A stretch of 46,989 nt of DNA from Acidimicrobiia bacterium (GCA_040902765.1 JBBDWO010000004.1:1-46989), one strand, 5' to 3'; numbered from the stretch's first letter, positions 10,279-16,796 are shown. Notes: generated by a model from the sequence alone, not told the origin. Numbers and translations are program-made.

Positions 10279-12270
10279 ATGCAGCGTCGCAACATCTTCT
10301 GGACCGTGGGCGCACTGGTCCTCGGTCTCATCGTCGGCGTGGCCGGTGCCCGGCTGGGCTTCGGATCCGCGTCCGGCGGAAACCTTGCGAACATCGCCGC
10401 CGAACGCGGCCTCACAGGTGCAGAGGCCGAAGCGGCCCTGGCGACGTTCGTACCGCCCGGTGCCCACGACGAGTACCTGATCTTCGCCTCCGGAGGTCAT
10501 AGCGGGCAGATGCACGTGATCGGCGTCCCGTCGATGCGCCTGCTCAAGACCATCCCCGTGTTCGCCCCTGACGCCTGGTCGGGCTACGGATACGGGGCCG
10601 ACTGGAGCATGGAACTGCTCGCCGGGGGCTCGGATGCGAGTCAGAACGAACCGCTGACCTGGGGCGACACCCATCACCCGGCCCTGTCGGAGACCGGCGG
10701 CGACTACGACGGTCGCTTCCTGTACATCAACGACCGGGCCAACGGTCGGATCGCCATGATCGACCTGCGCGACTTCAAGACCAAGCAGATCATCGACGTC
10801 CCGAACATGGAGAGCTCCCACGGCGGTGTGTTCGCCACGCCGAACACGGAGTACGTCCACATCTCGGCGAAGACGCCCTCTCCGATCTTCTTGGAGAGCG
10901 GGTACGCCCCGCTCGACGAGTACCAGGAGCACTACCGCGGCGTCTCGAACTTCATGGCGGTCGACCCGGAAACCGGCCGCATGGACCTCGACCGCAGCTT
11001 CCAGATCGAGCTGCCGCCGTACAACCAGGACCTCGCCGATGCCGGGAAGCTGGCCAGTGAGGGCTGGGCGTTCATCAACTCGTACAACGTCGAGATGGCA
11101 ACCGGCGGGAACCTGGAAGGCAATCCGCCCATCGAGACGGGTGCCATCGCCTTCGACTACGACTACCTGCACATCATCAACTGGGAACTGGCCGAGCAGG
11201 TGGTCGCCGAGGGCAAGTTCGAGATGGTCAACGGGATGCGGATGATCCGCCTGCAGACGGCGATCGACGAGGGCATCCTGTGGTTCGCTCCTGAGCCACG
11301 GAACCCCCACGGCGTCGACGTTTCGCCCGACGGCAACTACATCGTCGTCTCCGGCAAGCTCGACCCGAACGCCACCGTGTACTCGATCGACCGGATCGAG
11401 GCGGCCATCGCCGCCGGCGACATCGAGGGCTACGACCCCTTCGGCGTCCCGGTGCTGCGCTTCGACGCCGTCATGGAGGCCCAGGTGGAGCTCGGTGGCG
11501 GTCCGCTGCACACCCAGTTCGACAACCGTGGCAACGCCTACACCAGCCTGTTCGTGGAGAGCGCGGTGGCCCGGTGGACGCTGGGACCCGAGGCCGGTGT
11601 CGCCGAAGGCGACGCCTTCACCCTGGTGGACAAGATCCCGGTGCACTACAACATCGGGCACCTGGTGACCGCTCATGGCGACACCGTCAACCCGCACGGT
11701 CGCTATCTGGTGGCGCTCAACAAGTGGGCCATCGACCGACACACACCGGTGGGAACGTTGCATCCGCAGAACTTCCAGCTGATCGACATCGATTCACCGG
11801 AACTCCGGATCCTGCGTGACATGCCGATCGGGTTCGGCGAGCCGCACTACGTGCAGATGATCGCCGTCGACAGGCTGGCCGACGTGTGGACGGCCTACCC
11901 GATGGGGACCGATCCGCTGACCATGGCGACCTCGGAGGTCGTCACCGCCCCAGGCGAGGAGCGAATCGAGCGCGTCGGCGACACCCTTCACGTGTACATG
12001 ACGGCACGGCGCAGCACGTTCACCCCGGACGTGATTCGTGCCCGTCAGGGCGACACGGTGGTGATGCACATCACCAACATCGAGACCGCACAGGACGCTA
12101 CCCATGGCTTCGCCATCCCCAGGTACAACGTCCAGGCGAGCCTGGACCCCGGTGAAGTGCTGACCGTGGAGATCGTCGCCGACCGCTCCGGATCGTTCGC
12201 CTTCTACTGCACCGAGTTCTGCTCGGCCCTGCACCTGGAGATGCAGGGATGGCTGCTCATCGAACCCTGA
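10279..12270 (+). CDS. nosZ: Nitrous-oxide reductase, clade II (Sec-type)
   Basis: Reduces N2O to N2 outside the membrane; 663 aa. An N-terminal hydrophobic segment (residues 5-25, WTVGALVLGLIVGVAG) is a Sec-type signal or anchor without a twin-arginine pattern. The seven-bladed propeller that holds CuZ carries D130-T-H-H-P-A-L-S, the clade II DxHHP signature. The C-terminal cupredoxin has the CuA ligands C644, C648, H652 and M655 (CTEFCSALHLEM) and an upstream His in THGFAIP. A start at ATG 10279 with AGAGAGG about ten bases upstream is used. A CRP-like box lies upstream and a perfect hairpin follows the stop. Confidence 0.97.
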   Translation: MQRRNIFWTVGALVLGLIVGVAGARLGFGSASGGNLANIAAERGLTGAEAEAALATFVPPGAHDEYLIFASGGHSGQMHVIGVPSMRLLKTIPVFAPDAWSGYGYGADWSMELLAGGSDASQNEPLTWGDTHHPALSETGGDYDGRFLYINDRANGRIAMIDLRDFKTKQIIDVPNMESSHGGVFATPNTEYVHISAKTPSPIFLESGYAPLDEYQEHYRGVSNFMAVDPETGRMDLDRSFQIELPPYNQDLADAGKLASEGWAFINSYNVEMATGGNLEGNPPIETGAIAFDYDYLHIINWELAEQVVAEGKFEMVNGMRMIRLQTAIDEGILWFAPEPRNPHGVDVSPDGNYIVVSGKLDPNATVYSIDRIEAAIAAGDIEGYDPFGVPVLRFDAVMEAQVELGGGPLHTQFDNRGNAYTSLFVESAVARWTLGPEAGVAEGDAFTLVDKIPVHYNIGHLVTAHGDTVNPHGRYLVALNKWAIDRHTPVGTLHPQNFQLIDIDSPELRILRDMPIGFGEPHYVQMIAVDRLADVWTAYPMGTDPLTMATSEVVTAPGEERIERVGDTLHVYMTARRSTFTPDVIRARQGDTVVMHITNIETAQDATHGFAIPRYNVQASLDPGEVLTVEIVADRSGSFAFYCTEFCSALHLEMQGWLLIEP

Positions 12271-12279
12271 CCGACGACC

Positions 12280-12312
12280 GGCCCGGTGGCGCGCACCCCG
12301 CGCCACCGGGCC
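12280..12312. terminator. Perfect 14-bp intercistronic hairpin after nosZ
   Basis: GGCCCGGTGGCGCG (12280-12293), loop CACCC, CGCGCCACCGGGCC (12299-12312). It sits ten bases after the nosZ stop and 27 before the cupredoxin start. There is no T-run, so it may attenuate or stabilise the nosZ transcript rather than fully end it. Confidence 0.6.
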
Positions 12313-12338
12313 CACGACCCACTACGAAAGGACACGAC

Positions 12339-15462: not shown

Positions 15463-16289
15463 TCGCCGCCCGGGGTGTCGGCAGGACCGTCGCCGCCTGG
15501 GAGATGCGCAGCGCGGCACGCACGCGATGGCTCCTGGGGGCCGCCCTCATCTATGGGGTCGGCGCCGTCGCCCTCACCCTGGTCGGGTTGCGCTCGCTGC
15601 GCGATCTGGGTGTCGGGGGAACCGGTGCCGCCATCGATGGGATCCTCGCCATGGGCGTGCTCCTCTCACCACTGATGGGGCTCCTCGTCGGCGCATCGTC
15701 CATCGCCGGTGCACGAGAGCAGGGGACACTGGCCATGCTGGCGGCCCAGCCGATTCGCCGCCGGACCATCCCCCTGTCGACGATCACCGGACTCACGCTG
15801 ACCATCTGGGCGGCGATCGGCGTCGGTCTGGGCCTGGCCGCGGTGATCCTGTCACCGGTCGCCTCCGGCCGGGAACTCGTCGGACTGGCGGTTGCTGCCG
15901 GGGCCAGCCTGGCCGCGGCCGCGGTGGGGGTATCTATAGGCGTCGCCGTATCCGCGATCGCCTCCACCCGGAGTCAGGCCACTGCGGTCGCGGCCGCCAT
16001 CTGGTTCACCACGGCGCTCGGATTCGACCTGATGCTCGCCGCGGTGGGGCCTGCCATCCGCCTCGGACCGGTGGGATTCCTCTGGTCGGTGCTGCTCAAT
16101 CCGCTCGAGTCCATCCGACTGCTCGCGTTCTCGATCATCGATCCGGCGACGCTGGGCCCATTCGGTGTGTACATGGCGGACACCTTCGGCACCGCAGGAA
16201 CCATCGGGATCCTGGCGGGCGCTGTCGCCTTCTGGATCGTGACTCCTGCGATGACGGCGGTCAGGGCGATCCAACGCCGCGACGTGTGA
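15459..16289 (+). CDS. nosY: NosY copper-assembly ABC permease
   Basis: A 276-aa integral membrane permease with about six segments (residues 25-48, 55-75, 103-125, 140-170, 180-205, 245-268). The motif IAGAREQGTLAMLAAQPIRRRTI is the coupling-helix region typical of NosY/ABC-2 permeases. The start at ATG 15459 overlaps nosF (ATGA). AAGGAGG at 15446-15452 is a strong ribosome-binding site six bases upstream. It is partner to NosF and NosD. It is followed 24 bp later by an Rrf2 regulator. Confidence 0.9.
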   Translation: MIAARGVGRTVAAWEMRSAARTRWLLGAALIYGVGAVALTLVGLRSLRDLGVGGTGAAIDGILAMGVLLSPLMGLLVGASSIAGAREQGTLAMLAAQPIRRRTIPLSTITGLTLTIWAAIGVGLGLAAVILSPVASGRELVGLAVAAGASLAAAAVGVSIGVAVSAIASTRSQATAVAAAIWFTTALGFDLMLAAVGPAIRLGPVGFLWSVLLNPLESIRLLAFSIIDPATLGPFGVYMADTFGTAGTIGILAGAVAFWIVTPAMTAVRAIQRRDV

Positions 16290-16313
16290 CCGGTCGACGA
16301 GAGGACTGATCCC

Positions 16314-16796
16314 GTGCAGATGAGACTCGGCAAGCGAGCCGACTACGCCGTCCGCGCCGTCCTCTCACTGGCACGGACGTGGCGGCCCGGCCAACCCCTC
16401 AGGAAGGCCCGACAGATCGCCGGGGAAATGGGGATTCCGGAGAAGTATCTGCCGCAGCTGCTCGCGGCACTCGTCCGGGCAGGGTTCGTCGAGTCGGTGA
16501 CCGGCCCCGAGGGCGGCTATCGCCTCGTCGATAGCCCGGACCGGGTCACCCTCCTCCAGGTCATCGAAGCCGTGGAGGGGCCGCTGGAGTCCACCGAGTG
16601 CGTGCTGCGGGGGGGCCCGTGCCACTGGGACGACCGCTGCGCCATCCACGAGCACTGGTCGGGAGCGCAGGACGCCATGCGGGATCACCTGCACGCCACC
16701 ACCTTCGCCTCCATCGTGCACACCGACGAGATGCTGGAGACTCACTCCGACGGCAGCGCCTCCGACTCCTCGACGGCCACCGCACCTTTGCCGTAG
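16314..16796 (+). CDS. Rrf2-family Fe-S transcription regulator, NsrR/IscR-like
   Basis: A 160-aa protein. The winged-helix N-terminus (RLGKRADYAVRAVLSLAR ... ARQIAGEMGIPEKYLPQLLAALVRAGFVES) is standard Rrf2. Cys96, Cys103 and Cys109 (C-x6-C-x5-C) could bind an Fe-S cluster sensing NO, O2 or redox state, as in NsrR, IscR and RirA; those have similar but not identical spacing. The GTG at 16314 is taken, with GAGAGGA upstream (8-base spacing); ATG 16320 is also possible. As the last gene in the nos cluster it is a plausible regulator of it. Its 3' end overlaps the antiporter gene on the other strand by 55 bp. Confidence 0.85.
   Translation: MQMRLGKRADYAVRAVLSLARTWRPGQPLRKARQIAGEMGIPEKYLPQLLAALVRAGFVESVTGPEGGYRLVDSPDRVTLLQVIEAVEGPLESTECVLRGGPCHWDDRCAIHEHWSGAQDAMRDHLHATTFASIVHTDEMLETHSDGSASDSSTATAPLP

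Follow-up and report, generated by a model that had tools for sequence, protein, structure and literature searches.

A NosL-free, cupredoxin-linked clade II nos operon with fused NosB and NosD in an Acidimicrobiia genome

Nitrous oxide reductase (NosZ) is the one biological sink for N2O that is well known; for its clade II form it is unsettled what donates the electrons, what NosB does and whether NosL is required. The clade II cluster of Bacillus azotoformans is ordered nosC-nosZ-ORF(NosB)-nosD-nosY-nosF, and lipoprotein cytochromes of the NosC type adjoin nosZ (PMC3475470). NosR is normally missing from clade II, and flavobacteria possess a NosB-NosL fusion (PMC9697520); Rrf2 genes have been reported as common neighbours of clade II nosZ (PMC6264515). 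Blue copper proteins have also been considered as electron carriers. Pseudoazurin donates to NosZ (PMC6530538), and in haloarchaea copper proteins are postulated to replace cytochrome c (PMC11218638), although these haloarchaeal halocyanin and pseudoazurin cases belong to other NosZ clades and nos-operon membership is not described for them in the literature searched.

The locus presented here was found in a window of 46,989 nucleotides, the whole stretch of DNA that was analysed (GCA_040902765.1, JBBDWO010000004.1:1-46989), and is situated on contig 4 of a 1.99 Mb genome of an Acidimicrobiia bacterium (97% complete). With the Sec-type NosC clusters it has in common nosZ, NosB, NosD, NosF, NosY and a putative lipoprotein electron carrier beside nosZ; here, however, a blue copper protein stands in place of the cytochrome c, NosB and NosD are fused, and NosL is absent genome-wide. 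As in the flavobacterial fusion, NosB is joined to a maturation protein, but the partner is NosD. While the clade II N2O-reduction system as such is known, its NosL-free, cupredoxin-linked NosB-NosD variant is new, and no description of such a branch was found in the openly accessible journal articles searched.

Gene content and organization of the operon

Six genes, all on the plus strand (10279-16796), code in this order for NosZ, a cupredoxin lipoprotein, a NosB-NosD fusion, NosF, NosY and an Rrf2-family protein. The TAG stop codon of the cupredoxin gene overlaps the GTG start of nosBD, and ATGA overlaps are present at both the nosBD/nosF and the nosF/nosY junctions; hence, the six genes were read as one operon, with the cupredoxin translationally packed inside. 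An identical operon is carried by another genome of the family, G043 (locus L048; 98% complete), whose NosZ is 89% identical, and since the flanking genes there are different, the arrangement is not a product of chance. The observed cluster is real, and the gene order proposed in an earlier reading of the DNA without database searches (the sequence-only reading) holds for all six genes. Promoter and terminator scans of the sequence yielded no more matches than shuffled sequence did.

The product of nosZ (10279-12270, +) scored 769 bits against TIGR04246, the model of Sec-type NosZ (cut-off 625), and fell under the cut-off of the TAT-type model. All seven CuZ histidines (H132, H133, H181, H344, H411, H461, H523) and the CuA ligands (H609, C644, C648, H652, M655) are in place. 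Comparison of N-termini revealed a membrane segment of uncleaved appearance without a lipobox, from which it seems probable that the enzyme is exported and held at the external face of the membrane.

The second gene (12339-12725, +) encodes a type-1 (blue) copper lipoprotein of the auracyanin/plastocyanin kind with the lipobox LAAC and the copper motif C-AVPG-H-HEAG-M. The lipobox cysteine, His76, Cys110, His115 and Met120 are retained in the aligned relatives, the ligand loop being shorter in the cupredoxins of two members of the NosZ clade described below. The AlphaFold2 model (pLDDT ~97 across the domain) was matched by Foldseek to cupredoxins, auracyanin and CuA domains, and the alignment, the model and these matches place the His, Cys, His and Met ligands of a type-1 copper site in a cupredoxin fold, so the cupredoxin with C-x4-H-x4-M ligands noticed in the sequence-only reading is borne out. 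The best sequence matches among solved structures were a Bacillus cupredoxin, the N-terminal cupredoxin domain of nitrite reductase, auracyanins A and B and plastocyanins; the auracyanin match (E ~4e-14) is accompanied by matches to plastocyanins and other cupredoxins. Chloroflexus auracyanins A and B share with the protein the fold, the C-x4-H-x4-M loop and the membrane anchoring of a blue copper protein, but they are 27-29% identical to it in structural alignments, the gene described here is linked to nosZ, and the phototrophic role is irrelevant. The protein was also considered as a split CuA domain, a candidate that was rejected because the second cysteine is missing.

Among the best fold matches there was also FtrB, a protein of iron uptake, and Cupredoxin_1 domains are found in other systems as well, as would be expected if the cupredoxin served another enzyme or copper/NO stress and were merely co-regulated with nosZ. 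Such a role is quite improbable, however, given that the linkage to nosZ recurs across phyla in changing flanks and that the cupredoxin gene overlaps nosBD within the operon.

The third gene (12725-14770, +) had previously been read as a fused nosD. The fusion is real, but its partner, NosB, a defining protein of clade II, had been overlooked. The NosD half (~residues 230-681) matches PF05048 (106 bits versus 23.6) and, over the full model, comes just short of the TIGR04247 cut-off (283 versus 300 bits). A Pfam search of the ~200 amino acids N-terminal to NosD returned no family. This part (~residues 1-215) nevertheless contains LNHYVGM and FGHD, to be compared with the published NosB motifs LNHYIGM and YGHN (PMC9697520), it has four membrane segments (another hydrophobic stretch, the fifth, is the former NosD signal region), and it aligns to the stand-alone NosB of relatives at ~30% identity, which together identify it as NosB. 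The N-H-Y-x-G signature is invariant in 72 of 72 NosB sequences, and in the predicted structure it is carried by a short helix situated between the first and second membrane helices (NosB, window positions 12725-13402).

To our knowledge, neither a fold nor a function has been assigned to NosB. A model predicted from 72 sequences (pLDDT 94, pTM 0.87) was matched by Foldseek almost wholly to claudin-fold proteins (claudins, TARPs, GSG1L and a designed claudin; best E 3.9e-4), to which the VIA list (Z up to 9.6) adds DUOXA1, whereas comparison of the NosB sequence with solved structures gave no significant match. The best fold matches have TM values of ~0.42-0.46 and Z ≤9.6, which for helical proteins is no proof, and the resemblance of the predicted fold to claudins, TARP and DUOXA1 may be regarded as a lead.

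The two following genes code for the ABC ATPase NosF (14767-15462, +; PF00005) and the ABC-2 permease NosY (15459-16289, +; PF12679), each with a homologue at the equivalent position in relatives. NosB, fused to NosD, would form together with NosF and NosY a membrane maturation complex for CuZ. The last gene (16314-16796, +) encodes an Rrf2-family protein (PF02082, 116 bits), and the presence of such a regulator gene inside the cluster, as noted in the sequence-only reading, is thereby substantiated. Its C-x6-C-x5-C cysteines, kept in most Rrf2 relatives, are fitting for a putative Fe-S sensor, and all specific NsrR and IscR models scored under their cut-offs. The protein presumably regulates the operon, probably via an Fe-S cluster.

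In the alignment with G043, the strongest-conserved upstream stretch (10203-10243, +) includes the palindrome GTGAA-N4-TTCAC (10222-10235), a putative operator with the CRP/FNR-like spacing TGTGA-N6-TCAC. Apart from the window, only G043 has the palindrome; it is absent from the other clade members and was therefore discarded as a branch-wide operator. A second perfect GTGAA-N4-TTCAC is located at 25928-25941 of the window; at least two matches with at most one mismatch were obtained in 13 of 100 shuffles. Just upstream of the operon with its CRP/FNR-like palindrome there are two adenylate/guanylate cyclase-like genes (6933-8879 and 8899-10131).

Absence of NosL and the branch of NosZ

Neither NosL (PF05573, at Pfam sensitivity) nor FMN_bind, the domain of NosR, was detected in the whole 97% complete genome, so that a NosL or NosR encoded elsewhere was dismissed and the lack of both genes claimed earlier was confirmed. 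With NosB present and NosR absent, the locus is a clade II nos cluster, and it departs from the canonical maturation set in NosL. As regards its distinctiveness, the earlier claim has to be divided: neither the absence of NosR nor an Rrf2 gene is anything out of the ordinary in clade II (PMC9697520, PMC6264515), Rrf2 genes being found also beside nosZ in the loci of relatives examined, while the cupredoxin and the lack of NosL are unusual.

Within the same order, NosL is present in 20 of 23 genomes with nosZ, the three exceptions being the source genome, G043 and one genome that is 59% complete. The ordinary clusters of the order (L031-L050), arranged as rrf2-nosZ-nosB-nosD-nosF-nosY-nosL(-cytochrome c), have the gene set in common except for NosL and the cupredoxin, and Rrf2 occurs in both. 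They differ, however, in that NosB and NosD are separate, NosL is present and no cupredoxin is linked; their NosZ, 53-59% identical, belongs to another branch and is mostly a lipoprotein, whereas that of the operon lacks a lipobox. The NosL-free, cupredoxin-linked form was therefore rejected as an order-wide actinobacterial trait, and of the designation "actinobacterial clade II nos cluster" only the assignment to clade II stands, as the operon represents a cross-phylum branch.

The closest NosZ proteins beyond the family (61-76% identity) are those of Nitriliruptorales, HRbin12, KatS3mg013, Chloroflexi CSP1-4 and others. In a tree of 104 rows NosZ fell into a fully supported clade of 18, apart from the NosZ of its own order, and a careful tree of 58 rows recovered this clade with a support of 100/99. 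The members are mainly Actinomycetota and Chloroflexota (one tree row labelled Thermomicrobiaceae is a possible binning error). A linked lipoprotein cupredoxin with lipobox and type-1 ligands is present in 16 of the 18, mostly directly downstream of nosZ; no such gene was seen in the remaining two, L088 and L103, the latter being cut off by the end of its contig. Thus the comparison with related clusters, proposed in the sequence-only reading, returned both the same operon in G043 and the cupredoxin in most of the clade. NosL is encoded in the nos cluster of none of the 18, and a genome-wide search at the curated cut-off found none in 20 genomes of the branch. NosB and NosD are fused in 10 of the 15 branch loci long enough to tell and lie in overlapping frames in the remainder; the fusion also occurs in sister lineages, and beyond the wider clade only in L174. 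His466 and His473, considered as a signature of the branch NosZ, were discarded, being found in only 7 and 3 of the 18 members, respectively. The lack of NosL, the linked cupredoxin and the fusion of NosB to NosD together mark out a coherent branch within clade II. Its spread over phyla and its distance from the ordinary NosZ of the order suggest that the branch was disseminated by horizontal transfer, with differential loss as the alternative.

It could be argued that, for want of NosL, the NosZ enzymes of the branch receive little metal or are inactive, since deletion of nosL in Paracoccus under copper limitation results in copper-free NosZ (PMC6530538). Yet nosL mutants stay active when copper-replete (PMC6530538), Schinkia produces the NosZ protein (production, as distinct from activity) from a nosL-less cluster (PMC13274427), the copper ligands are kept in 18 of 18 clade members (one sequence being partial), and the operon is conserved across phyla, all of which makes an inactive enzyme highly improbable. 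NosL is in addition missing from clade II clusters of Dehalococcoidia and Gemmatimonadota (L118-L122, L132, L134, L136, L165, L168), whose genomes gave no PF05573 match; it is less universal than commonly stated.

Electron donor or copper carrier

In the wider clade of 31 loci, which takes in Dehalococcoidia, Armatimonadota and two archaea, a cupredoxin is linked to nosZ in 23 of 31 cases versus 1 of 73 outside, while a cytochrome c is encoded within 5 kb of nosZ in 0 of 31 versus 48 of 73, the rows being related and not phylogenetically independent, so that Fisher values are descriptive only. When the count was confined to loci with 5 kb flanks only, the corresponding figures were 12/16 versus 1/34 for the cupredoxin and 0/16 versus 28/34 for cytochrome c. 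No locus has both a linked cupredoxin and a nosZ-linked cytochrome c. A second sample of 20 Chloroflexota loci gave, as predicted, a cupredoxin in 3 of 4 loci inside the clade and in 1 of 16 outside. Fourteen of the latter 16 also lack a linked cytochrome c, and most have no cupredoxin either; hence, a linked donor is dispensable, and the absence of cytochrome c is less telling in this group.

The sequence-only reading had left the cupredoxin as either a donor or a deliverer of copper. At first sight, its position suggests that it has replaced NosL as the copper carrier loading CuZ (and CuA): it fills the slot between nosZ and nosBD in which sister lineages, including archaea, keep NosL (L108, L116, L124, L125, L149, L158), it is a copper lipoprotein, as is NosL, and NosL is missing from the whole branch. 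However, five sister loci have a cupredoxin as well as NosL (L108, L116 and L124, together with L224 and L226 of the second sample), so the cupredoxin is no mere stand-in for NosL. Furthermore, the NosL-less clusters of Dehalococcoidia and Gemmatimonadota have no cupredoxin in the slot, and the conservation of all four type-1 ligands is more in keeping with electron transfer than with a release of copper. A replacement of NosL is accordingly considered unlikely. The coexistence with NosL, the NosL-less clusters without cupredoxin and the lack of any overlap with linked cytochrome c all agree better with electron donation, and the differing loops of nosZ-linked cupredoxins among sublineages (CxxxxHxxxxM, CxxHxxM, CxxHxxxM) are what would be expected if carriers get exchanged. 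Most likely, therefore, the cupredoxin is an electron donor to NosZ that replaces cytochrome c and not a substitute for NosL; of the two roles proposed earlier, donation is favoured and delivery disfavoured.

Two other arrangements were observed. In Nitrososphaeria and Geothermarchaeota MAGs of the wider branch (L149:9890-16065 and L158:9890-16065) the order is nosZ-nosL-nosB-nosD-nosF-nosY, and the signal of NosZ is Tat-like. Between nosZ and nosB, Thermodesulfobacteriota, Dadabacteria and relatives (L117, L123, L126, L128, L135, L146, L155, L160) encode a small and conserved secreted protein (...SWQKQA...MAWQYYVKAATAGLNAK...) with no heme or copper motif.

As an electron donor, the membrane-anchored cupredoxin beside NosZ would take electrons from a quinol:cytochrome c/bc-type chain and pass them to CuA, a task that elsewhere may be carried out by the nosZ-linked cytochrome c NosC. 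In addition to two genes resembling heme-copper oxidases, the source genome has several cytochromes c, and the latter could supply NosZ as alternatives to the cupredoxin. Contig 2 of this genome (L192/L197) carries a cbb3-like fusion, in which a COX1-like membrane protein is joined to a FixO-like cytochrome c domain; more cytochromes c are encoded in its vicinity. Copper would reach CuZ through a route that bypasses NosL. SCO1 was considered as the copper donor of CuA and rejected, the only match, a sub-threshold one at 43566 of the window, being a peroxiredoxin-like protein.

Judging from sequence comparisons, it is reasonably probable that the six genes constitute a complete clade II operon in which a blue copper protein donates to CuA, NosB, NosD, NosF and NosY carry out maturation without NosL, and Rrf2 exerts control. 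The more far-reaching notion of an all-copper N2O respiratory unit, with the cupredoxin for cytochrome c, CuZ assembled free of NosL by NosBD and NosFY, and NosB as a prokaryotic claudin-fold accessory subunit, is possible but doubtful.

A natural NosL-free, cupredoxin-linked branch in Actinomycetota and Chloroflexota offers a direct test of the donor, of the role of NosB and of the need for NosL. If the proposed reading is true, N2O reduction in this branch would be doubly copper-dependent, which would bear on where these organisms act as N2O sinks. Surveys in which nosL or a linked cytochrome c counts as evidence that a nos cluster is intact would misread the branch.
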